Shown here one piece after another: positions 2,964 to 32,339 of a stretch of DNA of 36,391 nt. The notes beneath the pieces were generated by a model. The model did not search any database. It was not told the origin of the DNA and worked only from the letters and a program-made list of their open reading frames with translations. Position numbers and translations under genes: made by a program. Origin of the DNA: Thermoplasmata archaeon (GTDB lineage: Archaea; Thermoplasmatota; Thermoplasmata; Sysuiplasmatales; Sysuiplasmataceae); assembly GCA_021817225.1 (NCBI GenBank), contig JAKAVR010000017.1, positions 1 through 36,391 of the forward strand, in the 5' to 3' direction. Numbering within the stretch: the first letter of the stretch is position 1; every line of letters begins with the position of its first letter.

Positions 2964-3198
2964 ATGAATCTACAGAAGACCATGTACACTGACCGATGTC
3001 CTCTCTGTGAAGAACTCCATCACGAATGCAATCTTCTAACAAGGTGTCGATATTTCGTACTCACAGTTTCACTTCCTCTATCTTAATTGTTCATTAGCCC
3101 TCATTTATACTAACTACAATATTTATTTATTTGGTGCGTAAGTCATCTCCACTATTGATGCACTCTTGGGCATCAAATATCAGGCGAACTCAAATAGA

Positions 3199-3481
3199 TC
3201 AAGCAGCTTCAAGAATTTCGTCAATATCTTCCAATTTCTTCGCTACTTTTCTGCCTTTTTTCGGTCAAGGAGATCAAGTTCTTTGGCGGATATTAACTAT
3301 TGTCCACCCTTTGTTTAACAAGTCCCATCTGCTTAGCCTTCTCCATTGACCGATATCCTTGGTTGATGGAGATACCCGCTTCGCCCCAAATCTTCGACAG
3401 GAGATATTCGCCCTTGTCATTCAGTAATAATATCAACCTGATCAGGCCCGATTGTTTCTCAAAGACTCGGATAAGTTGCAT
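3199..3481 (-). pseudogene. Winged-helix transcriptional regulator, broken by stop and frameshift
   Basis: From ATG 3481 the frame reads a small winged-helix regulator (IRLILLLNDKGEYLLSKIWG, then a recognition-helix-like segment INQGYRSMEKAKQMGLVKQR). An in-frame TAA (3293-3295) interrupts it. The same frame continues with YPPKNLISLTEK, and one extra base in a run of six A (plus-strand T 3256-3261) shifts it to GRKVAKKLEDIDEILEAA and a proper stop at 3199-3201. The reconstructed protein would be about 93 residues, like small archaeal MarR/ArsR-type regulators whose wing ends in a PPKN-I-LTEKG motif. Two independent lesions indicate genuine decay rather than a programmed event. Confidence 0.75.
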
Positions 3482-3581
3482 TCTGATTTCTACATATCAA
3501 GTTGCAATATGAATTATATCATTCGATTATCAAGTCAGAAGATATAAATGTGCTCCTAATCTGTTCTATATCGGAAGTTAG

Positions 3582-3755
3582 AATAGGAAATCAAGTGAAT
3601 CAGAAAGAGAGCCATATCTCTACAGTTCAAAGCCGACTCATGACATCCCTGTAGATCGGATATCTTCTGTCCCTGATTGGCTTGTCCAGTTGGAAGACAG
3701 TTTCGACTTGGATGTCCCGAATTACCCAATTCGCGTATCATTGAAAAGAAAGTAA
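3582..3755 (+). other. Possible remnant ORF, unidentified
   Basis: One plus-strand frame is open for 57 codons and ends at TAA 3753-3755. It has protein-like composition (VDRISSVPDWLVQLEDSFDL) but no ATG and no clear start, and the upstream frame closes at a TAG. A TATA-like gatataaa lies at 3541-3548. It may be the end of a decayed gene in this degraded island, or chance. I assign no function. Confidence 0.25.
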
Positions 3756-3824
3756 TATCTCACGTTTTCGGTAAATGAGCATGAATCTGCATCTTCATTT
3801 ACTGATTTTTATATAGCCTGTACG

Positions 3825-3839
3825 GCTTTGGGACAATAT
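3825..3839. repeat. Left terminal inverted repeat of the IS
   Basis: gctttgggacaatat, the exact reverse complement of 4639-4653. The match ends on both sides of the 15 bp. The transposase relic's stop codon overlaps it by one base. Confidence 0.9.
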
Positions 3840-4612
3840 TATGAGCCGATACTTCGAACCATTGTAGGCTCGGTGTGTGTGAGGTGGCAGCACTGCCTCA
3901 CATTGTGGACATTCGCCTTAAGGAACTCCTCTGTCGCCTTCCTCCCGGGCAGCTTCTTCCTTATCCTTGCAGGGAGCCTCCTCTTCAGCATCGACATGAC
4001 CGCCTCGGCATTAGAACGCATGTGGTAGGCGCTCAGCCACTGCTGAGTGTCGAGAACAAACGAATGCATCATGGCGGCCCATGACTGAACACCGTGGCTC
4101 CTGAATTTTGAATTCGATTTCGGAAGGAAGTAAGGCGTCACACCATACTTCTCCACGACAGAGCATATGTTACGGGCAGCATACAGCCTGTCGCCGAGCG
4201 GCGTGCCCACTGCGGGACAGTTGGATGCAGTCGTTTCCACGACTGCAGGGAAATGGGAGAGTTCACCGGTGCTGTGGTCATCGGTGGATGAGAGAGCGGA
4301 TATGACATTGGTGTGCACACCGGCTGTCAGGACAAGGTACTGGAAATTCGACTGTCTTGTATGAGAAACCGCGCGTGATGCGCAGCTTCTCACCGAACAC
4401 TCGGACAAGACCGGCTGCAACCCTGTTGCTCACACACAGATGATGCCATCTCCTTCAGCTCATCCGAGCATATGCGTTTCCTTCCACTGCTGTTCTCGCT
4501 CAACGGCAGGACAATCAATGAAGGACTCCTGGTGTTTTGGGTACGTTTCATTCACAAACGTCAAGTTTCGAAGAAACATCACAGCCATACGTATCGCGTG
4601 CAGCCAGATCAT
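3839..4612 (-). pseudogene. DDE transposase (IS4/IS5-like), frameshifted
   Basis: The longest open part (3839-4420) carries a DDE-type C-terminal domain: an Asp in GDRLYAARNICSVVEKYGV and the final Glu region in YHMRSNAEAVMSMLKRRL. Upstream, homologous-looking pieces are scattered over other frames: MIWLHAIRM...KETHMLG from ATG 4612, then SDELKEMASSVCEQQG, then VRVFGEKLRITRGFSYKTVE. The coding sequence therefore has several frameshifts and probably an internal deletion, since only about 260 codons remain. The track's TTG start at 4420 is not a real start. Family placement is by motif resemblance only. Confidence 0.8.
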
Positions 4613-4638
4613 GCAGTTCGGCGGCGGGGAGTGGCTGG

Positions 4639-4653
4639 ATATTGTCCCAAAGC
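4639..4653. repeat. Right terminal inverted repeat of the IS
   Basis: atattgtcccaaagc, the reverse complement of 3825-3839 and identical to 113-127 of the left copy. Confidence 0.9.
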
Positions 4654-4668
4654 AGGCGGCATGAGAAC

Positions 4669-4679
4669 CTTATTATATT
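4669..4679 (+). promoter_or_regulatory. TATA box of the SRP RNA gene
   Basis: The sequence cttattatatt is centred about 26 bp before the inferred 5' end of the SRP RNA at 4701, the canonical archaeal TBP spacing. The IS ends only 15 bp upstream, so the native sequence beyond the TFB-recognition region has been replaced by IS sequence. Confidence 0.7.
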
Positions 4680-4700
4680 GTTGCCAGGTTAGAACAATCG

Positions 4701-5007
4701 CCAGGCTTGGCCGGGGCGCTCGGCGTGCCCTTTTACACCGAAATCGTCGATAGCGGGGGCGACAGCCTGTGGAGACGTAACCGTAACACAGAAGGCGCAG
4801 CCGGGAACGATGAGGCTTCGTCCGGCGGGGCGCGAGGAGCCAGGACGACATGTCCGGAGGGACGTGACTCTTGGAATGGTCGCGGAAATCGGACCAGGCC
4901 CTGACGGGAGCAGTCTTACCGCGGACTACGTGCGCTCGTCGGGAAGCGGGGCCGAGGACCCTGCTGTCAAACCTTCTGTGAAGCGGCCGGCAACGCAGGC
5001 GGCCTGG
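4701..5007 (+). ncRNA. Signal recognition particle RNA (7S RNA)
   Basis: RNA scaffold of the signal recognition particle, which with SRP19 and SRP54 targets nascent membrane and exported proteins. The 5' part (ggccggggcgctcggcgt, then atcgtcgatagcgggg) matches the archaeal Alu-domain pattern as I know it. The helix 8 hairpin is explicit: accaggccc-tgac-gggagcagt, with the SRP54-binding asymmetric bases AGG/AGCAG around 4895-4914. The ends pair as archaeal helix 1 (ccaggc 4701-4706 with gcctgg 5002-5007). About 307 nt is the usual archaeal size. Oddities are a UGAC apical loop rather than the usual GNAR and a degenerate UGUNAY motif. The 3' end lies four bases from the stop codon of the convergent gene. 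Covariance-model confirmation was not possible here. Confidence 0.87.
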
Positions 5008-5011
5008 TACC

Positions 5012-5587
5012 TCAGAGTGTCAGCTGTTTTGTGTCGAGCGCAAGGTATGACAGCCTGTAGGATGCGGACAGTGCAGAAGTCAGCACTGCCCTCGACTCGT
5101 GCTCATATTCCCCTTCCACCGTATATGCAGGCTCCGACTCGGGGATCCTGTAGCCCGCTTTGGCGAGTATCCTCCTGGCTTCAGCGACCGTGGCCTGCGG
5201 CGCATGCCTCAGCTCCGCCGTCTCCCCCATCTTCATCTCGTTCAGTTCCCTCCTGAATATGGGTCTGTGGAACAGCCTTTCAAGGGTGTAGACTGCGACT
5301 GCGGTCGCCTTCCTCTTGTCAAGACCGTTCTCCTCGCATGCGTTCGCAATGGCCTCGTAGATCGTCATATCCTTTGGCCCGATGGGCGTGAATATCTTGG
5401 AAGGAGGAATGGCCTTCTCGCGTATTACACCTGTATCTGTCAGGGCTTTCAGATAGCCTGTCAGCACCAGTCTGTGGATATCAATCCCCCTCGATTTGAG
5501 CTTCCTGACCAGGCCGCTTATCGATACGGGCTCCGACCTTATTTCCTCGAGTATTATCTCTTTGAGCTGCTTATCTGGACTGAACAA
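5012..5587 (-). CDS. Winged-helix-like archaeal protein, function unknown
   Basis: A 191-residue cytoplasmic protein with no membrane segment. Residues ~7-60 (LKEIILEEIRSEPVSISGLVRKLKSRG...) have the helix spacing of a winged-helix DNA- or RNA-binding domain. The remainder is a charged helical region with a conserved-looking core (IGPKDMTIYEAIANACEENG). I cannot name the family. Initiation is at TTG 5587, and a TATA-like sequence about 25 bp upstream (5604-5614) predicts a leaderless transcript. The gene follows the site-2 protease on the same strand with a 40-bp gap that contains that promoter. It converges on the SRP RNA with almost no spacer. Confidence 0.7.
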   Translation of the reverse strand: MFSPDKQLKEIILEEIRSEPVSISGLVRKLKSRGIDIHRLVLTGYLKALTDTGVIREKAIPPSKIFTPIGPKDMTIYEAIANACEENGLDKRKATAVAVYTLERLFHRPIFRRELNEMKMGETAELRHAPQATVAEARRILAKAGYRIPESEPAYTVEGEYEHESRAVLTSALSASYRLSYLALDTKQLTL

Positions 5588-10295: not shown

Positions 10296-10409
10296 TCACA
10301 TCGCCGGGTTCATGGGCCGTGTCGAGCCGGCCCCGTTCCGGCCGACAAGCAGCCGGAACCTCTCCCAACGATGTCCTATGTTGAGAGAGCCGTTCATATC
10401 GGCGATTTC
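10296..10409 (-). pseudogene. tnpB 3' end fragment
   Basis: Minus-strand codons read ADMNGSLNIGHRWERFRLLV and run to a TGA at 10296-10298. This is the extreme C-terminus of an IS200/IS605 TnpB, starting at the motif carrying the last RuvC-like acidic residue (NADxNGxxN). Everything upstream is missing. At its inner end the sequence switches to plus-strand tnpB sequence. Confidence 0.7.
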
Positions 10410-10661
10410 ACTGGCGGTCACCGCGACACGGGCAGAGGTACGCGGTTCAACCGGATAGTCAACTCCATGCCTTTCTGCAGGCTGATGTCCATGATAGAAT
10501 ACAAGGCGCTGTGGCAGGGTGTACCTGTTGCCTATATGGGCGAGGCATACGCCTCACAGGAATGCCATGTCTGTCATGGCATAGGAAGAAGACGGACACA
10601 GTCGTCCTTCGAATGCGATGCGTGCGAATGGCGCGGAAATGCCGTTATGAACGGCGCTCTC
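10392..10661 (+). pseudogene. tnpB internal/C-terminal fragment, inverted relative to its neighbours
   Basis: Plus-strand codons give VHIGDFTG, then FNRIVNSMPFCRLMSMIEYK and a zinc finger CHVCHGIGRRRTQSSFECDAC, ending GNAVMNGAL. This is the RuvC plus zinc-ribbon part of a TnpB nuclease, cut at both ends. The final NGAL repeats the motif held by the minus-strand fragment, so two tnpB copies contributed. The track's 246-residue ORF (10371-11111) is a chance fusion of this piece with unrelated sequence. Confidence 0.75.
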
Positions 10662-10769
10662 CAGGCGTTTCCTGATTTTGCCCGTGAGCAGTTGCCTCCT
10701 GTACTTCGGGCACAATACGAAATGGAGATTGAGAAACGATACAGATGTCCTCTTGTGCCGATAGTTCAC
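10655..10769 (-). pseudogene. tnpA (Y1 transposase) N-terminal fragment
   Basis: Minus-strand codons from ATG 10769 read YRHKRTSVSFLNLHFVLCPK then YRRQLLTGKIRKRLES. This is the beginning of an IS200/IS605 TnpA; the YRHKRTSVSFLNLHFVLCPKYRR pattern is diagnostic. After about 38 residues it runs into antisense tnpB, so the catalytic Tyr and HUH regions are lost. Confidence 0.78.
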
Positions 10770-10816
10770 AACACATCGAATATTATCGATATCTGTAAAG
10801 TCATCGGTCGCTTCAT

Positions 10817-10836
10817 CCCATTAATAAATTCATGGG
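10817..10836. repeat. Possible IS200/IS605 left-end hairpin
   Basis: The inverted repeat cccat/atggg has a 10-base loop and lies about 48 bp upstream of the tnpA start, the expected place for the other subterminal hairpin. With 10247-10264 it brackets the relic. Confidence 0.4.
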
Positions 10837-10863
10837 CTTTCGCGACCTTTAATGGTAAAAAGT

Positions 10864-10874
10864 GTTATCTAATA
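10864..10874 (+). promoter_or_regulatory. TATA-like box for the prepilin peptidase
   Basis: gttatctaata lies about 25 bp before the GTG start at 10894, predicting a leaderless transcript. It is just outside the IS605 relic. Confidence 0.5.
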
Positions 10875-10893
10875 CTCAAATTGTCTTCAGTGC

Positions 10894-11769
10894 GTGGACC
10901 TGGAGTACGTCGCTACCATCGCAGCCGCCCTTTCTGTCTTTTTCATTGCATCCGTCGAGGATGTCCGGGAAAGGGAAGTAAGCAATCTCCTCTGGATCAT
11001 TCTCGGCGGAGTCGCCTTTGTTGTGATTGCTCTGAATGTCTATACCGGCAGACTTCCACTGCCTGGGGCCTCAGCCATTGTTCTTGTCCTCCCTTTCTTC
11101 TTGTTTGCTGACATGTTCATAGACTGGAACGGGGCTCTTGGCAGGCGTGGAACCTTGTTGCGGTACACCATAGGGATATGTCTTCTCCTCATCTCCGCCT
11201 ACGAGGTCTATCCATTCATCGGGCTGACTTACGTCGACATAGCTGCATCAATCCCCCTCTGGATCCTCTTCATAATAGTGCTTTACAAAATAGATGTGAT
11301 TAAGGGAGGCGCGGATGCAAAATCTCTCGTGACTCTCACACTCCTTTTCCCAGTCTATCCACCCGCTGTTACAGGCATGGTCCAGCCTCTTTTCGCCACT
11401 CTTACTCTGCCATTCTTCCTGAGCGTTCTGCTGATGGGGGCGATTTTCTCTCTGTCTATTCCTATTGCCCTTTTTGCCGAGAACGCGGCCAGGGGCAGGG
11501 TGAAGCTGCCTCACATGTTTCTCGGGCGCCAGAAGGACGTGTCCTCAGTGGATCTGAGGAAGGAATGGCTGCTTGAAGTGCCGGATGAAACGGGCAATCC
11601 CAGGCGAGTGAAAAAACTCGGCTCCGTGGACGAAGATTGTATGCTCGACAGAATGCGCAGTCTCGGTTGGAGGACCGCATGGACTTCACCCAAAATACCG
11701 TTCATTCTGGCTCTCACGGCCGGTCTTCTATTCGTCCTCGTCTTCGGAGACCCGCTTCTTTACCTTTAG
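10894..11769 (+). CDS. A24 prepilin/pre-archaellin peptidase-like membrane protein
   Basis: 291 residues with about seven to eight membrane segments. Two candidate catalytic Asp motifs fit the aspartic A24 family, which removes class III signal peptides from type IV pilins and archaellins: SVEDVREREVSN (Asp ~23), and IKGGADAKSL (Asp ~141, the usual GxGD region, here GGAD). A basic cytosolic segment (~210-265) precedes the last membrane helix, longer than in minimal FlaK/PibD enzymes. No pilin or archaellum gene is in the window. The GTG start is supported by the TATA box 25 bp upstream. The 3' end overlaps the convergent glycosylase gene by 42 bp. Confidence 0.8.
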   Translation: MDLEYVATIAAALSVFFIASVEDVREREVSNLLWIILGGVAFVVIALNVYTGRLPLPGASAIVLVLPFFLFADMFIDWNGALGRRGTLLRYTIGICLLLISAYEVYPFIGLTYVDIAASIPLWILFIIVLYKIDVIKGGADAKSLVTLTLLFPVYPPAVTGMVQPLFATLTLPFFLSVLLMGAIFSLSIPIALFAENAARGRVKLPHMFLGRQKDVSSVDLRKEWLLEVPDETGNPRRVKKLGSVDEDCMLDRMRSLGWRTAWTSPKIPFILALTAGLLFVLVFGDPLLYL

Positions 11770-19005: not shown

Positions 19006-19917
19006 TCAGGCAAGAAGGAGCGCTGCTGCCATCGCCACGCTTCCACCGAGCTGAAGCGCAACGTAGTACTTTGTGCCCCTGGAGATATCGACAGCATTGC
19101 CTGCGGATGAACGAGTGTGCCTGAGGGGGAAATACGACAGTAGAGCGGACACGGCAAGAGGCACGAGGATGAATGGGCCGTAAAGAGGGTATATCGGCAG
19201 GATGGCGACCATGCCAAACACTAGGAAGACGGTTTGCATCAGGAATGCATTTCCGATCCTCCACTGGTAGATATGCAGGAATCTCGATACCCTCCTCGAA
19301 CTCCTGTCGGGAAGGTGGTGCGCGTACCTGACCGCAGTTATCCAGAACGAGGCAGGAATTGTGACGATAACGGCCATGGCAGACAATTCACCTGTGAGGA
19401 GGAAGTATAGCGCCAGCGCAGGGAGGGGGCCAAATGCGATAAACGGGACGGGTTCCCCTACTCCCCTGGCTCCAAGCATGAAGGGCGGAACTGCATATAC
19501 AACGGTCAGGAGGAACCCCGCAACTCCTATCAGCATTATCACAATGAAGCCCGTTTCAAATGCGAGGTAAAAACCAAGCAGTGCTGCTATGGTGAAGACT
19601 AGGGCGGCATACCGCGCAATCCTCTCGGCCGGAAGCCCGGTCGTGTCTATCAGGAACGGCCCTGTCGGTATCCATGTATCGGCCTGTGTTATGAAGACGC
19701 CCTCGCTCTTGTCAGCCACTTCGGCAATCAGGTTTACTCCAACCTCAAACACGAAAAGTGCGACGGCACCAGCCAGCCACATCAGTGGATGCAATACCTT
19801 CCCGCTCCTGAAGGCAAGTGCATAGGTAAGCAGCACGGGCGCTCCGGAGGCCCAGTAGAGTGGAATCCTCAGACCCTTCAGCCAAACTGCGGCTCCCATC
19901 ATACATCCCTTTTTCAT
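19006..19917 (-). CDS. UbiA-family prenyltransferase, divergent
   Basis: 303 residues with about eight or nine membrane segments. The UbiA superfamily attaches isoprenoid chains to aromatic or lipid acceptors using two Asp-rich motifs. Motif 1 here is VGVNLIAEVADKSEG, with Glu replacing the first Asp of NxxxDxxxD. Motif 2 is AVRYAHHLPDRSSRR, with a reduced acidic set. The site is therefore atypical, though the N and key acidic positions partly survive. A second, canonical UbiA gene ends 36 bp upstream and a UbiE-like methyltransferase lies beyond, so quinone synthesis is the best guess. ATG 19917 is used; the TATA-like cttaataac at 19935-19943 would also suit ATG 19902. Confidence 0.78.
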   Translation of the reverse strand: MKKGCMMGAAVWLKGLRIPLYWASGAPVLLTYALAFRSGKVLHPLMWLAGAVALFVFEVGVNLIAEVADKSEGVFITQADTWIPTGPFLIDTTGLPAERIARYAALVFTIAALLGFYLAFETGFIVIMLIGVAGFLLTVVYAVPPFMLGARGVGEPVPFIAFGPLPALALYFLLTGELSAMAVIVTIPASFWITAVRYAHHLPDRSSRRVSRFLHIYQWRIGNAFLMQTVFLVFGMVAILPIYPLYGPFILVPLAVSALLSYFPLRHTRSSAGNAVDISRGTKYYVALQLGGSVAMAAALLLA

Positions 19918-19953
19918 GCAAAGGCAGGCATTGACTTAATAACTGTTCCTGAC

Positions 19954-20841
19954 TCATAGCAGATAGGCAACCACCATCAGCACAATGAAGACATACATTC
20001 CAACTATGTTGTTCCTGAGCGCCTTCACGAGTTTAGGATGGTCGCCAACACCGTTTCTCGCATAGATATACGAACTGAAAATCATTGGCGCGGAAAGGAG
20101 TGAAATCACCGTGTACTGGCTTGTTATGTGCAGTACTGCGGAAATGAGCACCCAGAGGTAAATCACTGTGCCAAGCAGGGCATAGGCACGTACTGCATTG
20201 GCGCGGCCAAGAGTGGTTGTAACATTCTTCCTTCCGGTCGCAGCATCCGCTTCGGCATCCGGGACCTCATTCATTATCACGAGATTCGCTATCAGGAGCC
20301 CGCAAGGTATCGCAACAAATACAGATTCTATCGAATAGTATCCCGTCTGTACGAAGTAGGCACCCATTACTATGAGGCCGATGACGCAGAGCATGAGTTC
20401 TCCCATGCCCTTCCGCTGCCATACAGTTGAATAGAATGTTCCCGCAAATCCACCGAGGAAGAAAAGCGGTACAAGTTCCCATCCACTGACGAATGCGAGA
20501 TAGACTCCTATGAAGAACGAGATTATGAGGGAGACGGTGGCCACATAGAATGCATCCCTGGGTTCCAGACCGCCCTCGTAAACAATTCTGCCGCCGCCGC
20601 TGTATGGCGTCTTGACAGTCAGAAGGTCTGTCCCAAGCCTGTGATCGAAATACTCATCGTATGTGTTTGCGGCTATCTGGGAGACAACGGCCCCAACAAG
20701 TGTAAGCAGGAAAAGGGGAATGGAAATTGATACCTGCCTGGAGGCTATCAGCACGCCAAGCACCACATACAGGAAGCTGATAAGCAGATGCGGCTCAAAG
20801 ACAATCCTTGCTAGAATTATTCTGGTCTTTGTCCCAAGCAT
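19954..20841 (-). CDS. UbiA-family prenyltransferase, MenA-like
   Basis: 295 residues with about eight or nine membrane segments. Motif 1, NTYDEYFDHRLGTDLLTVKT, has the full NxxxDxxxD and the GTD extension typical of MenA-type enzymes, followed by a Gly-rich SGGGR loop. Motif 2, NEVPDAEADAATGRKNVTT, supplies the second Asp pair. This best fits prenylation of a naphthoate-type ring (menaquinone branch). A digeranylgeranylglyceryl-phosphate synthase role is the alternative for archaeal UbiA proteins. A TATA-like gattaaaag at 20864-20872 lies about 27 bp before ATG 20841, so the message is nearly leaderless. Confidence 0.85.
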   Translation of the reverse strand: MLGTKTRIILARIVFEPHLLISFLYVVLGVLIASRQVSISIPLFLLTLVGAVVSQIAANTYDEYFDHRLGTDLLTVKTPYSGGGRIVYEGGLEPRDAFYVATVSLIISFFIGVYLAFVSGWELVPLFFLGGFAGTFYSTVWQRKGMGELMLCVIGLIVMGAYFVQTGYYSIESVFVAIPCGLLIANLVIMNEVPDAEADAATGRKNVTTTLGRANAVRAYALLGTVIYLWVLISAVLHITSQYTVISLLSAPMIFSSYIYARNGVGDHPKLVKALRNNIVGMYVFIVLMVVAYLL

Positions 20842-20863
20842 CGCTTTTCCCGACTTTGAGGGC

Positions 20864-20872
20864 GATTAAAAG
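20864..20872 (-). promoter_or_regulatory. TATA box of the MenA-like gene
   Basis: Minus-strand cttttaatc is centred 27 bp upstream of ATG 20841. It separates this gene transcriptionally from the methyltransferase upstream. Confidence 0.5.
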
Positions 20873-20903
20873 TCTTTCCATCAACAGGATAACCCTGATA
20901 CTG

Positions 20904-21650
20904 CTACTTCTCCCCTCTTACAATTGCAACACCGTGAGTCATCAGGTACCTGAAATCGGACCTTCTGTATCCGATTTCCTTCATGACCGAAGCAAGTTCA
21001 TCCGGCCGGCCGAGGTTCATATATGCCTCGCTCAGATGTTGCCACGGGTTTGACTTCCACTCCCTTCTCACCTTTCTTGGCACAACGAGTATCGCAAGCC
21101 TTCCAAGCACATGCTTCATGTAGAAATTCATGAACCTTTTTCTGATGCCTGAATCTGGCTCTGCTATGTCGATAATCACGACCCTGCCCTCGGGACGCAG
21201 GACCCTTCTGATGTCCCTCAGCGCCTTCTCCTTGTCAATGAAATTCTTGAAGGAGAAACCGGACATCACCCTGTCGAACACCCCCTCGACGAAGGGGAGA
21301 TGTTCTGCAACACCTATCACTGGAAGGTAATTTCCAGTGCCGAGGGGACCATGCAGCGATTTCCTGAGCATGACCTCGTTCGGTTCGAGCAAGATGATAT
21401 CCCTGCCGCGAAGGTGCCTGGAAAATGAGCCCGGTCCGCTTCCTACCTCCAGCACCCTCATGTCCTCTGCCGTCTCGGTGGCCGCCTTTTTTCTCCACCT
21501 GTCCATCATCCCGAACGAAATTATGGATGCGGCGCTATCATAGAATTCGCCTATGGACTGTATGTCGCTTTCAACCCTGCTCCACGACTCCTTTTCAAGC
21601 TTCCGGCCCGCACTGCCCTCATTGTCTTGAACGACGTCCGCATGCGACAT
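20904..21650 (-). CDS. UbiE/MenG-like class I SAM methyltransferase
   Basis: 248 residues. The SAM-binding motif is VLEVGSGPGSFSRHL, the acidic ribose contact is in IILLEPNEVML, and VAEHLPFVEGVFDRVMSGFS followed by SFKNFIDKEKALRDIRRVLR is the classic UbiE motif series, with PEGRVVIIDIAEP after it. The family C-methylates demethylmenaquinone or related prenylated rings. Its position beside two UbiA genes on the same strand supports a quinone role. A TATA-like tatataat (minus strand attatata) lies near 21689-21697. It is divergent from the alcohol dehydrogenase gene. Confidence 0.85.
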   Translation of the reverse strand: MSHADVVQDNEGSAGRKLEKESWSRVESDIQSIGEFYDSAASIISFGMMDRWRKKAATETAEDMRVLEVGSGPGSFSRHLRGRDIILLEPNEVMLRKSLHGPLGTGNYLPVIGVAEHLPFVEGVFDRVMSGFSFKNFIDKEKALRDIRRVLRPEGRVVIIDIAEPDSGIRKRFMNFYMKHVLGRLAILVVPRKVRREWKSNPWQHLSEAYMNLGRPDELASVMKEIGYRRSDFRYLMTHGVAIVRGEK

Positions 21651-22848: not shown

Positions 22849-23883
22849 TCATACAAAGAACTGATTGAGCTCTTTCCAGGTGCTTCCGTCCACGTATTTC
22901 TTCTTCGTGCCTTCTGCAAGCGGCACCTCTACCACTGAAGCTCCACTGATGGCCACCATGACTCCGAATTTGCCCGAATGCGCTGCCTCGACGGCGCGTA
23001 TTCCTAGCCTTGAAGTCATCACCCTGTCGTACGAGTTTGGCCTCGTCCCCCTGATTGTGTGGCCCAGGACGGTCGACCTTGTCTCGTAGCCAGTCCTTTC
23101 CTCGATGTACCTGGCCAGATAACTTGCATTGCTCTCGCCAGGGGCCTTTGCAAACAGTTCATGGCCGAACTCGTCCTTCTCGGCCTTGCCACGCGGAACA
23201 AGATTCACGCCCTCTGCAACAACTATCACTGTGCTGTTTTTCCCCCTGCTCCGCCTTTCCCTTACGAGCTTTACGGCATCGTCTGCAGTGCCGTTGAATT
23301 CCGGTATCATTATCATGTTGGCACCGGCGGCTGTGCCTGCGTAGAGGGATATCCACCCGGCATCCCTGCCCATCACTTCAACAACCATTATTCTCGAATG
23401 TGATCTTCCTGTCGTCTGGAGGCTCTCGATCATCTTCATTGCCTCGTCAACCGCAGTGAAGAAGCCGAACGAGTAGTCTGTGCCTGCGAGATCGTTGTCA
23501 ATTGTCTTCGGAACGCCAATTACCTTCTGCCCCATTGCCGAGAGTTCCCGCGCAACTCCCAGCGTATCGTCCCCTCCAACGGCGATAAGGACGTCGAGGC
23601 CCAGGGAGTTCATGTTCCGGGCGACCGTATCAAGGCCCTTGTCCCTCTTGAGCGGATTCGTCCTCGATGTTTCAAGCTCGGTGCCCCCTTCACCCACGAG
23701 ATACTCGAAATCGTCGTATTTCAGCGCCACAGTGTCCTTCTCAAGGAGGCCAGCCCAACCACGCCTTATTCCAATAACGTCGTCGCCGCGGACTTCCGCC
23801 GCCCTCAGCACGCCTCTTGTTACGGCGTTCAGGCCGGCACAGTCTCCGCCGCCGTTCAATATGCCTATCCTCAATTGAATCAC
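22849..23883 (-). CDS. pfp: 6-phosphofructokinase, probably PPi-dependent
   Basis: Phosphorylates fructose 6-phosphate to the 1,6-bisphosphate. 344 residues, PFK family A: GGGDCAGLNAV (10-21), GGDDT (103-107), PKTIDND (125-131, catalytic Asp ~129), TTGRSHSR, and VMGRDAGWISL. Residue types matter: ATP enzymes have GGDGS and PGTIDND, whereas Asp at the first position and Lys at the second are the accepted marks of pyrophosphate-dependent enzymes. A PPi enzyme works in both glycolysis and gluconeogenesis. Most archaea use ADP-dependent or PfkB enzymes; a family-A PPi-PFK is known in Thermoproteus tenax. GTG start, four-base overlap with the aldolase gene, so one operon. Confidence 0.9.
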   Translation of the reverse strand: MIQLRIGILNGGGDCAGLNAVTRGVLRAAEVRGDDVIGIRRGWAGLLEKDTVALKYDDFEYLVGEGGTELETSRTNPLKRDKGLDTVARNMNSLGLDVLIAVGGDDTLGVARELSAMGQKVIGVPKTIDNDLAGTDYSFGFFTAVDEAMKMIESLQTTGRSHSRIMVVEVMGRDAGWISLYAGTAAGANMIMIPEFNGTADDAVKLVRERRSRGKNSTVIVVAEGVNLVPRGKAEKDEFGHELFAKAPGESNASYLARYIEERTGYETRSTVLGHTIRGTRPNSYDRVMTSRLGIRAVEAAHSGKFGVMVAISGASVVEVPLAEGTKKKYVDGSTWKELNQFFV

Positions 23884-24656
23884 GCAGTCTTCGTCACTTT
23901 TTCAGGCGACTTCCTTTCAATGATCAGTTCGTTGAGAACCTTCGCTGTCCTGAGCGGATCACTGCTCTGCCAGACGTTTCTGCCAACTGCTATTCCTGCG
24001 GCGCCCGCATCCAGGGCACCGGACACATGGGTCAGAAATTCAGACTCATTCTTTGTCTTCTTTCCGCCAGCCATGTAGACAGGTACATTTCCTGCGGACT
24101 TGACGACCCAGGAAAAGCTTTCCTTGTCACCTGTGTATTTCACCTTCGCAGCATCGGCGCCGAACTCGAGCGCCGCACGCGCTGCATACGCAACCATATC
24201 CCTGGCGGTATCATCCTTGACATATTCTCCGCGAGGGTAGACCCAGAGGACGACTGCAAGGCCCGCATCGTGAGCTTCTTCCTCGATCTTCCCGAATTCC
24301 TGAACCATATCGCCTTCGAATTCGCTGCCTATGTATATTGTGTAACCGACTGCCGCGGCTCCAAGTCTGCTTGCATAGTCGACAGAGCAAAGCTGCTTGG
24401 CGACAGGCTCCTTGCCGTAAATGTTTGTCTTTGCATTCAGCTTGATAAGAAGAGGGATATCAATCATCTCGTGGTACTTCTCCGCAATTCCCTTCTGGCA
24501 CGCAAACGCGTCGAAGCCGCCTTTGTTTGCTATATCAATCACGAACTTTGGATCCACGTTTCTGCCGTCAAAATCAGTCGGACCGTGCTCAATGCCCTGG
24601 TCGTACGCAAGTATGATTGACCTTCCATTCCTCATGAACCTGTTCATTCTTCCCAT
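23880..24656 (-). CDS. Class I fructose-bisphosphate aldolase, archaeal (DhnA) type
   Basis: Cleaves or forms fructose 1,6-bisphosphate. 258 residues of the archaeal class I aldolase family. LAYDQGIEHGP near residue 17 is a family hallmark, and the Schiff-base Lys is in AAKVKYTGD (~173). AGGKKTKNE and AGIAVGRNVWQ form the phosphate site. Its TGA overlaps the GTG of the phosphofructokinase, pairing the enzymes that make and use the same bisphosphate. Start ATG 24656 has aaggagcg about a dozen bases upstream; a TATA-like gatttaag lies near 24710-24717. Confidence 0.94.
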   Translation of the reverse strand: MGRMNRFMRNGRSIILAYDQGIEHGPTDFDGRNVDPKFVIDIANKGGFDAFACQKGIAEKYHEMIDIPLLIKLNAKTNIYGKEPVAKQLCSVDYASRLGAAAVGYTIYIGSEFEGDMVQEFGKIEEEAHDAGLAVVLWVYPRGEYVKDDTARDMVAYAARAALEFGADAAKVKYTGDKESFSWVVKSAGNVPVYMAGGKKTKNESEFLTHVSGALDAGAAGIAVGRNVWQSSDPLRTAKVLNELIIERKSPEKVTKTA

Positions 24657-25398: not shown

Positions 25399-27858
25399 TT
25401 GGAAACGATTGTAAGGCAAGATCGTGAGAAGGAGACGGGAACAGCCCCCGGCAGAACAGGGGAGCTCGTTGGCCGTGACTTGCCAAGACGTGAAGGGTAC
25501 AGGTTTGTTCAGGGAACGGGCGAGTTCGCTGCTGACGTAATCTTTGCCAGCGCCCTCAGTATTGCGCTGTACAGGAGCCCGTATGCTCACGCGAGAATAG
25601 TGAAAATTGACAAATCCAGGGCGCTTGCAACGCCCGGTGTCGTCGCCGTCTTCACCGGTTCGGACATGATTGAAAGCGGTCTCAAAAAGGAAGGGATGCG
25701 GATGGCTGGCCAGTCACAGGAACGGTATCCCCTTGCGGTCGGTAAAGTGCGGTACAACGGGGAGCCGGTGGTCGCAGTAATCGCAGATTCTCAGTACACC
25801 GCCGAGGACGGCGTCAGCGCAGTGGAAGTGGAGTTTGAGCAGCTCGAGCCAAGCCTGGATCCCTACAAGTCAGTTGACGGTCATGACACTTCGCTTTTGC
25901 ATGAAGGAACCAAGAGCAATGTGGTCTTTGAAAAAGTCTACAAATACGGTGATGTGGATGGCGCGTTTGCGAAGGCACAGAAGATCATAAGGAGGAACAG
26001 GCTGTACGTGCCGAGGTTCACGTCCGCTCCCCTTGAACCAACAACAATCCAGGCAGACTTCAACCCCCGTCAGAACAGCCTCTACGTTAGCGGGAGCCTC
26101 AAATCATCGGAATTAACAAGGCAGATGCTGGCAAAGTACCTCGGCGTCCCCTTCACTTCTATCCACGTCTACATACCAGACGTCGGTGGCTCATTCGGTG
26201 TCAAGAATCATGGTGAGTGGGTGCTGCTTTGTGCTTGGATAGCAAGACAGCTTGGGAAAGCTGTGAAGTATGTTTCAACTCAGTCGGAAATGCTTACGGC
26301 TTCACAGCATGCGGAAGAGATATGGTGGGACGCTGAAATGGCGGTCGACCTGGACGGCACAATTCACGGATTCAGGGCCAGGTGCATACATGACCAGGGT
26401 GCATATACCAGCCTGCGGGGCATTGCGAACCAGCTCCGCAACCCGGCGGAGCAGTACAGGTTCAAAAGCTTCCAGCTGGACATAAGGGAAGTACTTACCA
26501 ACAAGGTTCCCTGCGGCTCCAACAGGGGTTATGCGAAGCTGCACCACGTGTTCATGCTCGAACGACTGATAGATGCTGCAGCGAAGGAGCTGGGCATCGA
26601 TCCTGTGGAGATCAGGCGCAGGAACCTGGTGCTGCCCGAGGAAATGCCGTACACGGCCCCCAACGGTGCGGTGTACGACGGTGGGGACTATCCAGAGTTG
26701 CTCAGGCTAACCGCCGAGCTGTTTGACTATGAGGGGTTCAGGAAAAAGCAGGAGGAATGGCGAAAGCAGGGAAGATACGTGGGATGCGGCGTTGCTCTTG
26801 GAATGGAATCCAACCCATCAACCGAGGCGAAGGAGCTCAACGTCCTGCCGCTCGAACAGGTGTCCAAAGGAACGGGCAACCAGGAGGCAGCATCGGTAGA
26901 GATCAACCAGTTCGGAAAGGTCCTTGTCACTGCAGGGGACATACCGCAAGGACAGGGACACGAAGTGACAAACGCCCAGATTGTTGCAGACACTTTAGGC
27001 ATGCCGTACGACGATATAACGATAACAAGCGGCTATGACTCGTGGCGGGACGCCTCTACACCGTTCTCCATCACCTCAAGCTGCAGATGGGCTGTGCTCG
27101 GAACAGGCGCGTTGATGGGGGCTTCCAGGCTTGTCAGGGAGAAGGTACTCAGGATTGCGTCCTATGTGCTGAATTCAAACAGCATTGAACTGAGCGCAGG
27201 TGTTGTGACGGACAAGGCAACTGGCAAAAGCGTGACAGTCGGTGAAATCGCGCGCCTTGCGTACATCGACCTGGAGAAGCTTCCCCCTGGAATTGAGCCT
27301 GGCCTGAAGTCAAGATACGTCTACAAGGCAAAGTACGATGTTGCTGGCGGCAGGGCAATTCCAGACGCCAATGGTTACTCAAACCTGTCAATGTCCTATG
27401 CGGCTGAAGCCACTTTTGTTGCTGTGGAGGTTGACAGGGAGACAAACGAGGTCAAGATACTCAACTTGAGCAAGACAGGCGATTGCGGAAGGCAGATCAA
27501 CCCGGGTGTCGTTGCATCCTTGGAACATGGGGCGATCGCGGACCAGGTTGGATTTGCGCTGTTCATGAAGATGGACTATGATGAGAATGGGCAGCTGCTC
27601 ACTTCGACGTTCAAGGATTATGTCGTGCCACTTGCTTCAGACTTGCCCAGCTTCCACCTGGGCCATCTTGAGACGCCATCACTTTTCACGCCGCTTGGCG
27701 TCAAGGGAATGGCGGAGGGTGCAGGCACGCCTGCTGTTGCAACAATAGCTGCCATTGAAGATGCTCTTGAGCCTCTTGGAATTACGCTGGACGAGGTCCA
27801 TATCACTCCAAGCGATCTGCACAGGCTGATAAGCAAGAAGCAGTCACAGAGTTCCTGA
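25399..27858 (+). CDS. Molybdopterin-binding subunit of a xanthine dehydrogenase/CoxL-family hydroxylase
   Basis: 819 residues, the large Mo-cofactor subunit of the xanthine oxidase family. Residues ~30-140 form the small a/b hammerhead domain (GTGEFAADVIF, YRSPYAHARIV). The Mo-binding domain has VGGSFGVKNHGEW, the active-site loop CGSNRGYAKLHHVFML, the cofactor-contact GDIPQGQGHEVTNAQ, and a C-terminal KGMAEGAGTPA where the catalytic Glu is expected. The loop is not the CO dehydrogenase form I AYRCSFR nor the common form II AYRGAGR, so the substrate is unknown. The FAD (CoxM) and 2Fe-2S (CoxS) partner subunits are absent on both sides. TTG start supported by TATA spacing. Confidence 0.9.
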   Translation: METIVRQDREKETGTAPGRTGELVGRDLPRREGYRFVQGTGEFAADVIFASALSIALYRSPYAHARIVKIDKSRALATPGVVAVFTGSDMIESGLKKEGMRMAGQSQERYPLAVGKVRYNGEPVVAVIADSQYTAEDGVSAVEVEFEQLEPSLDPYKSVDGHDTSLLHEGTKSNVVFEKVYKYGDVDGAFAKAQKIIRRNRLYVPRFTSAPLEPTTIQADFNPRQNSLYVSGSLKSSELTRQMLAKYLGVPFTSIHVYIPDVGGSFGVKNHGEWVLLCAWIARQLGKAVKYVSTQSEMLTASQHAEEIWWDAEMAVDLDGTIHGFRARCIHDQGAYTSLRGIANQLRNPAEQYRFKSFQLDIREVLTNKVPCGSNRGYAKLHHVFMLERLIDAAAKELGIDPVEIRRRNLVLPEEMPYTAPNGAVYDGGDYPELLRLTAELFDYEGFRKKQEEWRKQGRYVGCGVALGMESNPSTEAKELNVLPLEQVSKGTGNQEAASVEINQFGKVLVTAGDIPQGQGHEVTNAQIVADTLGMPYDDITITSGYDSWRDASTPFSITSSCRWAVLGTGALMGASRLVREKVLRIASYVLNSNSIELSAGVVTDKATGKSVTVGEIARLAYIDLEKLPPGIEPGLKSRYVYKAKYDVAGGRAIPDANGYSNLSMSYAAEATFVAVEVDRETNEVKILNLSKTGDCGRQINPGVVASLEHGAIADQVGFALFMKMDYDENGQLLTSTFKDYVVPLASDLPSFHLGHLETPSLFTPLGVKGMAEGAGTPAVATIAAIEDALEPLGITLDEVHITPSDLHRLISKKQSQSS

Positions 27859-30667: not shown

Positions 30668-31201
30668 TCATTCCTGAGGCTTGTTCGACTTGCTTTCGAG
30701 TGTGTGCCAGTCGATCACCCGCTGGATAATTTTTCTTGTTCCGTTGAGGTCGTAGTCCATTTTGGAAAGCCTCACTATCTTGATGCCCTGGAGTCCCCGT
30801 TTCTTCATCTGCATTTCCAGCTCCTTCTCGTCGAACCGCTGATCGTAGCCGAGCGCTATGATGTCGGGCCGAATCTCCTCCACTGTCTTGTATATGTCAT
30901 CCTCATGCCCGAGAACTGCCCTGTCAACCGGTTTGAGTGCGGCAACGAGTTCCACGCGCATTTTGCCCGGGGTGATGGGTTCATGCTTCATTTTCCTTAC
31001 AGTCGCATCTGTCGCTACGACGACAACCAGCTCGTCCCCCAGTTTTCTTGCCTCCTGCAGATAATGCAGATGGCCGAGGTGGACTATATCGAACACACCG
31101 GATGCCATTACTCTTACTGGTTTTTTGACTTCGAGAATATGAAATCCCTTCGGGTGGTCGTTGAAGTAGCGAACACGCGGTTGTATTTTGCTTTTGCCCA
31201 T
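30668..31201 (-). CDS. ribL: Archaeal FAD synthase (RibL-type cytidylyltransferase fold)
   Basis: Adenylylates FMN to FAD. 177 residues from ATG 31201 (the track's start at 31237 would enter the opposing promoter). ASGVFDIVHLGHLHYLQEAR contains the HxGH nucleotidyl-transfer motif, and VVVATDATVRKMKHEPITP and VDRAVLGHEDDIYKTVEEIR continue the RibL pattern. ALGYDQRFDE follows. An N-terminal leader of about 35 residues precedes the fold, longer than in the Methanocaldococcus enzyme. A glycerol-3-phosphate cytidylyltransferase role is the main alternative. Divergent from the sugar isomerase gene. Confidence 0.88.
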   Translation of the reverse strand: MGKSKIQPRVRYFNDHPKGFHILEVKKPVRVMASGVFDIVHLGHLHYLQEARKLGDELVVVVATDATVRKMKHEPITPGKMRVELVAALKPVDRAVLGHEDDIYKTVEEIRPDIIALGYDQRFDEKELEMQMKKRGLQGIKIVRLSKMDYDLNGTRKIIQRVIDWHTLESKSNKPQE

Positions 31202-31240
31202 GCTTGAATGCAGGCAGGCACTATGCGCAGACAGCATGCG

Positions 31241-31248
31241 TAAAATAG
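31241..31248 (+). promoter_or_regulatory. TATA-like box between ribL and the isomerase gene
   Basis: taaaatag sits 25 bp before ATG 31269. The complementary strand reads ctatttta about 43 bp before the ribL ATG, so the same AT-rich site could serve both directions; this is an inference. Confidence 0.4.
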
Positions 31249-31268
31249 TGGTCGGCGATCACATGCGC

Positions 31269-32339
31269 ATGACCCAGCAGGCGGCAATTCTTGACGATGC
31301 AGGTGGAAGGGCGGCAATCGACAAGAGCAACATGTCAAAGGCAATCGCATCCTTCCCTTTCCAGCTTGAGAAAGGCTGGGAACTCAGCAAGGGTATCGGC
31401 CCCGCCTCGTTCGGCTTCTGCCCTTCGAGCATTGTTCTGTCGGGAATGGGCGGCTCCGCTATTGGGGGCGATGTGCTGGCGGATGCAATGAGGGGGCTAA
31501 GTGGTTTCAGGGTGGACATCAACAGGACTTATTCGCTGCCCAGGAAACTGGACAAAGGCGTTCTTCATGTGGGTGTCAGCTATTCCGGCAATACGGAGGA
31601 GACAATTTCGAGCTTCAAAGAAGGATTGGAAAGAAAAGTACCTTCGCTTGGAATATCATCCGGTGGTAAACTCGAAGAAATGTGCAACCGGGAGTCTGTT
31701 CCATTCCTGAAGTTACCGCACGGAATTCAGCCGAGGGCCGCACTCGGATACATGCTATCCGCATTGCTCGGCATGGTTTCGAGGCTGGGCATATATGACT
31801 TCTCGGGCAGCATTATGGAGTCAATTCAATCCGCCAGGACAGCTGCAGCCTCCGTTGCACCGGATGTTCCGCTCGAAAAGAACGGTGCCAAGCAGCTCGC
31901 AGCATGGCTTGGAAGCTCTACGCCTGTGATTATTTCGACGCCTGCTGTATTCTCCGCAGCTGAAAGGATGAAGACACAGGTCAACGAGAATGCGAAGAGG
32001 TTTGCATGGCTGATGACTGTTCCGGAAGCGAATCACAATGACTGGATACCGCTTCGCCTTGATGCAACGGTAGGACGCTACAAGGCGATAATACTCGAAG
32101 GTGTGGAGAACAATCCCCTTCTCAGGCGGAGAATGGGGATCGTGGAGGAGATGCTTGGTGAAAACATGAGCATCAGGAAAGTTGCCTCCCTTCATGGCGG
32201 TATTCTCGACGAACTGCTCAGATACATTGTAATCGGGGACCACATGAGCTACTATCTTGCATTGCTCGGGTCGACGGATCCCACGCCCGTCGAACCGATA
32301 GAGGCGCTGAAGAAAGAGATTGATTCGAGAAGCCTGTGA
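31269..32339 (+). CDS. Bifunctional phosphoglucose/phosphomannose isomerase
   Basis: Interconverts glucose 6-phosphate or mannose 6-phosphate with fructose 6-phosphate, feeding the phosphofructokinase encoded elsewhere in the window. 356 residues from ATG 31269. Two SIS domains are present: VLSGMGGSAIGGDVLADAM, then VGVSYSGNTEETISSFKEG (sugar-phosphate Ser/Thr cluster). The catalytic Glu region is PEANHNDWIPLR and the His is in GGILDELLRYIVIGDHMSYY. ATG 31269 is chosen because taaaatag (31241-31248) lies about 25 bp upstream; ATG 31236 or 31188 would precede the TATA box. Confidence 0.92.
   Translation: MTQQAAILDDAGGRAAIDKSNMSKAIASFPFQLEKGWELSKGIGPASFGFCPSSIVLSGMGGSAIGGDVLADAMRGLSGFRVDINRTYSLPRKLDKGVLHVGVSYSGNTEETISSFKEGLERKVPSLGISSGGKLEEMCNRESVPFLKLPHGIQPRAALGYMLSALLGMVSRLGIYDFSGSIMESIQSARTAAASVAPDVPLEKNGAKQLAAWLGSSTPVIISTPAVFSAAERMKTQVNENAKRFAWLMTVPEANHNDWIPLRLDATVGRYKAIILEGVENNPLLRRRMGIVEEMLGENMSIRKVASLHGGILDELLRYIVIGDHMSYYLALLGSTDPTPVEPIEALKKEIDSRSL

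Follow-up and report, generated by a model that had tools for sequence, protein, structure and literature searches.

The bifunctional fructose-bisphosphate aldolase/phosphatase (FBPA/P) is often regarded as the standard archaeal gluconeogenic enzyme, and Thermoproteus tenax and its close kin keep it. In T. tenax, the aldolase gene presumably precedes that of the 6-phosphofructokinase (PFK) within a single operon, an order that is also that of the locus described here. The T. tenax PFK is a short (337 aa), pyrophosphate (PPi)-dependent enzyme that carries an Asp at the same site as the PFK studied in this work (PMC12203962, PMC11609450), and it is accompanied in this archaeon by PPDK (PMC12965863). 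Another archaeal PPi-PFK, that of Candidatus Prometheoarchaeum syntrophicum, is represented in the PDB (9CIR, 9CIS, 9CIT). Within the phylum Thermoplasmatota, two independent gains of pfk have been described, in the Lutacidiplasmatales and in the Thermoprofundales (AU p 0.02); these horizontally gained genes encode short PFK-A enzymes and were labelled ATP-dependent (PMC9287336). Among bacteria, Clostridium thermocellum is reported to combine a PPi-PFK, PPDK and a membrane PPase, and to have no soluble PPase (PMC8863071, PMC7657619). There, the physiology was measured, whereas only genes are compared here, and the clostridial PFK belongs to another clade, B2 (PMC6543838). Archaeal PPi-PFKs and the pfk gains of Thermoplasmatota are already published, and an archaeal PPi-PFK accompanied by an aldolase is of a known kind. 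The main new result of this analysis is the reciprocal absence of FBPA/P and PFK; the further archaeal lineage in which the pair occurs is also new.

The window, an entire contig of 36,391 bases, belongs to the genome (1.97 Mb, 95% complete) of an uncultured archaeon of the Sysuiplasmataceae, in the class Thermoplasmata. On its minus strand, a gene for an archaeal-type class I fructose-bisphosphate (FBP) aldolase (23880..24656, 258 aa) is the first of a pair, followed by the gene for a PFK-A 6-phosphofructokinase with a PPi-type donor site (22849..23883, 344 aa, GTG start). The two genes overlap by four bases on the same strand, GTGA (23880..23883), in which the stop codon of the aldolase (TGA) and the start codon of the PFK (GTG) are combined. 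The open reading frames were confirmed at the coordinates given in the preliminary description, which had also proposed that the translation of both genes is coupled, and the two motifs quoted there are present, as GGDDTLGV and PKTIDND. We observed that the aldolase gene lies directly upstream of the PFK gene, on the same strand, in all eight available Sysuiplasmataceae genomes (two genera, with PFK identities of 69-97%), and for this reason the overlap is not attributable to chance. The GTGA overlap is identical in six of these genomes, and in the other two the PFK starts a few bases downstream. This conserved arrangement agrees with the predicted coupled translation of the pair. The presence of a TATA-like stretch, gatttaaga, approximately 60 bases upstream of the aldolase gene is only suggestive. 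In a Methanomicrobiales MAG (L081), a group III PFK gene (GGEDT, 4001-5017) is immediately preceded by a gene for a distant DeoC/LacD-type aldolase (3058-3984), indicating that the aldolase-PFK pairing is wider than the Sysuiplasmataceae.

The product of the first gene matched the DeoC/LacD aldolase family (Pfam PF01791, 1.6e-44), and its closest solved relative was the class I FBP aldolase of T. tenax (phmmer, 281 bits, 7e-83, residues 6-248). In the alignment of both proteins, the Schiff-base Lys177, Tyr146 and Trp144 of the T. tenax enzyme correspond to K171, Y140 and W138. An MJ0400-type identity was rejected, given that the score obtained (138 bits) was half of that with the T. tenax aldolase. 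The cut-off of the NCBIfam FBP-aldolase equivalog model NF040816 was missed (231.8 bits vs 430); the assignment as a class I FBP aldolase therefore depends on how its similarity scores compare, on its catalytic residues and on the PFK encoded beside it.

The PFK showed a clear match to Pfam PF00365 (1.1e-94, 317 bits vs a cut-off of 30.9), and it could be aligned without gaps across 223 residues with the PFK of B. stearothermophilus (39% identity). In this alignment, D106, V110 and K126 occupy positions 104, 108 and 124, which are also 104, 108 and 124 in the E. coli numbering. The equivalent of the catalytic Asp127, D129, is kept, as are the F6P residues R164, M171, R173 and E224, and an alignment of 12 PFK sequences revealed that R269, H275 and R278 are invariant. 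The Asp of the GGDD motif (D106, position 104) was present in all 12 sequences, and the Asp104/Lys124/Val108-type site, along with the catalytic and F6P residues, did not vary among the eight Sysuiplasmataceae genomes. It has been reported that an Asp at position 104 fills the site of the ATP alpha-phosphate and marks PPi-PFKs, that residue 108 is always bigger than Gly in these enzymes, and that Lys124 is found in some ATP-PFKs too, so that alone it is not diagnostic (PMC12203962, PMC11609450). Accordingly, of the two motifs that had been put forward as marks of PPi dependence, the Asp of GGDDT is a strong, discriminating character, whereas the Lys of PKTIDND is a weak one. The best single full-length match of this PFK among PDB sequences was the Prometheoarchaeum PPi-PFK (9CIR, 38% identity). 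Together with Asp104, Lys124 and Val108, this match gives good support, at the level of sequence, to the PPi-type assignment made in the preliminary description, and we infer that PPi is very probably the phosphoryl donor. The best-scoring NCBIfam model was TIGR02483 (PFK_mixed, the short PPi/ATP group), yet the score, 367.8 bits, was lower than its cut-off of 430.55. In the AlphaFold model (mean pLDDT 86.7), the protein adopts the PFK fold, and the nearest folds according to Foldseek were bacterial PFKs (TM 0.86-0.87); since these are ATP-PFKs and the fold is blind to the donor, the structural comparison was given zero weight on this point. Regarding the effector site, Asp59, Arg154 and Glu187 are replaced, while Arg21 and Lys213 are kept; these substitutions hint at a loss of allosteric regulation.

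Similarities to the Prometheoarchaeum enzyme include its archaeal origin, the presence of GGDDT and PKTIDNDLAGTD in both proteins, and similar active-site surroundings. In contrast, the Prometheoarchaeum PPi-PFK has 424 residues, with insertions, instead of the 344 observed here, and in a tree of 42 sequences it formed its own long branch beside Thermotogota, apart from the Sysuiplasmataceae. The Sysuiplasmataceae PFKs (six rows) constituted a single clade with full support and a branch of 1.27 changes per site. GGDDT and PKT(I/M)DND are also present in other Thermoplasmatota PFKs (f9, f25, L067 and L074), and no adjacent aldolase gene was observed at the f9 and f25 PFK loci that were read; f9 may be the Lutacidiplasmatales. 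A single clade uniting the Sysuiplasmataceae PFKs with those of f9 and f25, which belong to the same class, was rejected (AU p 0.0026). Grouping them with two other Thermoplasmatota PFKs gave an AU p of 0.014, and of 0.18 when a methanogen sequence was added to the group. The sequences were selected for their resemblance to the query, and the best 80 matches all came from lineages other than T. tenax; on this sample, the Sysuiplasmataceae PFK looks like a further gain of pfk in the phylum.

The distribution of the enzymes that convert FBP to F6P was compared across the class. FBPA/P (PF01950) is present in 250 of the 400 genomes of the class, and was absent from the eight Sysuiplasmataceae genomes, all of them drafts; in four of these, completeness reaches 95% or more and contamination is about 2% or less. 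This absence, as well as the different phylum, separates the Sysuiplasmataceae from T. tenax. A PFK-A above the family cut-off was detected in 85 of the 400 genomes, and the comparison of the two tables revealed that 84 of these 85 genomes are devoid of FBPA/P, both enzymes being present only in G031. At the genome level, where related genomes are counted separately, the exclusion is highly significant (Fisher p 2e-43); at the family level, three of the four PFK-bearing families do not have FBPA/P (p ~0.02, with an approximate total of families, since the list of genomes without a match is incomplete). The PFK of G031 (L014; f15) is distant (34%) and has the sequence GGDGS, ATP-like at position 104, and this genome, a single contig of 5.2 Mb, is unusually large. 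FBPase I was not detected above the cut-off in any of the 13 PFK-bearing genomes tested, and GlpX was absent from the 16 genomes tested. Four families or parts of families without FBPA/P also have no PFK, which indicates that there is more than one route to the loss of FBPA/P. The three genomes tested that have neither PFK nor FBPA/P (G008, G017 and G026) contain FBPase I (PF00316, 89-138 bits), and this class I FBPase represents a second type of replacement for FBPA/P among these archaea. In general, the sampled genomes carry one recognised FBP-to-F6P enzyme each, and two together are rare. The mutual exclusion of PFK and FBPA/P, together with the missing FBPase I and GlpX, suggests that the PFK serves gluconeogenesis; it probably works in this direction as well.

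We also evaluated the presence of partner enzymes by family searches, which covered PPDK, membrane PPase, family I soluble PPase and ADP-PFK. Seven of the eight Sysuiplasmataceae genomes contain a full-length PPDK (the remaining one has a completeness of 69%), and all eight contain a membrane PPase; family I soluble PPase was absent from the eight genomes, and no ADP-PFK of the ribokinase superfamily was found in the family. The membrane PPase was rejected as a specific mark, given that it is common through the class (37 of 41 relatives). The f9 genomes tested yielded no full PPDK, hence the whole PPi set is not common to f9. The reversible route proposed in the preliminary description is supported by the absence of FBPA/P, FBPase I, GlpX and family I soluble PPase, and by the presence of PPDK and membrane PPase; as judged from gene content, it would operate as follows. 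The class I aldolase would interconvert triose phosphates and FBP, and the PFK would catalyse F6P + PPi <-> FBP + Pi, making a separate FBPase unnecessary, so that in the Sysuiplasmataceae the pair would replace the FBPA/P used by most relatives. With flux towards sugars, PFK and PPDK would release PPi, with which the membrane PPase could pump ions; with flux towards pyruvate, biosynthetic PPi would be used instead of ATP at the PFK, and would be consumed by PPDK. We consider it likely, with some reserve, that the aldolase-PFK pair is a PPi-linked, bidirectional upper sugar module that replaces FBPA/P. Of the two directions, the gluconeogenic one is favoured by the comparison of genomes no less than the catabolic one.

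Several observations would fit an ordinary glycolytic PFK that depends on ATP. The only NCBIfam model passed by this protein was PRK03202, 'ATP-dependent 6-phosphofructokinase' (354 bits vs a cut-off of 253); moreover, the pfk genes of the phylum have been named ATP-dependent (PMC9287336), the cofactor is often unpredictable from sequence (PMC6543838), and the ATP-PFK of S. coelicolor sits in the cluster of short PPi-PFKs (PMC11609450). However, PRK03202 was also passed by other PFKs with Asp104 (L010, L067 and L149), which means that the model is blind to the donor determinant and that its name cannot be trusted. Considering also that Asp104 blocks the site of the ATP alpha-phosphate and that Val is present instead of Gly at position 108, ATP dependence appears improbable. 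An identity as one of the ADP-dependent PFK-As of cyanobacterial type is scarcely credible: these proteins form an adjacent branch among the short PFK-As, but they have Gly104 and Ile108 (PMC11609450), in place of the Asp and Val observed here.

Other explanations accept PPi as the donor or concern the substrate. The PFK could work only towards pyruvate, with the FBP of gluconeogenesis being hydrolysed by an FBPase of the IMPase family (class IV). In G005, another of the Sysuiplasmataceae genomes, a gene of the inositol-monophosphatase family overlaps a NAD kinase gene (L136, 1507-3074). The PF00459 protein that it encodes obtained 202 bits with a bifunctional FBPase/inositol phosphatase model, and it is possible that it represents a class IV FBPase that could hydrolyse FBP, which counts against the bidirectional module; nevertheless, this score is under the curated cut-off of 264, and the NAD kinase neighbour suggests a role as NADP phosphatase or inositol phosphatase. 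NADP phosphatase and NAD kinase are elsewhere fused in one protein. A pyruvate-ward PFK with a class IV FBPase would also leave the class-wide exclusion of PFK and FBPA/P unexplained, and we regard it as unlikely, although less so than a dependence on ATP. The same exclusion is unexplained if the main substrate were sedoheptulose 7-phosphate and the aldolase/PFK pair served pentose synthesis, replacing transaldolase. This activity is known for the PPi-PFKs of cellulolytic clostridia (PMC7029132) and has been noted for PPi-PFKs generally (PMC12203962), and an aldolase is the right partner enzyme; nonetheless, the use of sedoheptulose 7-phosphate may be an extra role and not an alternative to that of the bidirectional module, and as the main function it seems very improbable.

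The preliminary description had presented the aldolase-PFK route as a departure from the Entner-Doudoroff routes of Thermoplasma relatives. This claim is not supported, given that a glucose-dehydrogenase-like gene (PF16912, 150 bits) adjoins a GH15 glucoamylase-family gene in the source genome; strong glucose-dehydrogenase-like matches were found in seven of the eight Sysuiplasmataceae genomes (the source and six of the seven others), suggesting that the entry enzyme of the Entner-Doudoroff pathway may coexist with the PFK. On L146 of the source genome (2889-6872), the glucose-dehydrogenase-like, GH15 glucoamylase-family and aldo/keto reductase genes lie side by side, and this group could possibly constitute a glucan-to-gluconate route. 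The phosphoglucose isomerase announced for the window was confirmed as a gene of the bifunctional phosphoglucose/phosphomannose isomerase (PGI/PMI) type (31188..32339, plus strand; PF10432, 3e-33), with scores slightly below the cut-offs of both PRK08674 (240 bits) and TIGR02128 (212.7 bits). It is located apart from the aldolase-PFK pair and possibly belongs to the same pathway. Since this type of enzyme is known from Thermoplasma acidophilum itself, it does not discriminate between the two routes, and it was rejected as evidence for glycolysis over the Entner-Doudoroff pathway. Elsewhere in the window, a large molybdopterin subunit of the CO dehydrogenase/glyceraldehyde dehydrogenase type is encoded on the plus strand (25399-27858; 470 and 447 bits, both well under the cut-offs). 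On the minus strand, a small quinone-biosynthesis cluster (19006-21650) consists of two genes for prenyltransferases of the UbiA/MenA type and, after them, one for a methyltransferase of the UbiE/MenG type. Mobile-element remnants were also observed on the plus strand, namely the C-terminal part of a Mutator-type transposase (2538-2963) and a TnpB/Cas12f-like fragment with only the TNB domain (10371-11111).

A broader interpretation, which we put forward tentatively and hold at slightly less than an even chance, is that PPi-type PFKs, gained independently of one another, took the place of FBPA/P on two or more occasions in the class, each acting as the sole bidirectional F6P/FBP enzyme, the Sysuiplasmataceae being the case that has the aldolase operon and the PPi economy. 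The published 'ATP-dependent glycolytic pfk' of the phylum would then be largely PPi-linked and capable of gluconeogenesis. If this class-wide pattern of either FBPA/P or PFK is true, an irreversible core step would have been swapped for a reversible, PPi-saving one, and the genes annotated in Thermoplasmatota as 'ATP-dependent PFK' would encode bidirectional enzymes and would not be markers of glycolysis.
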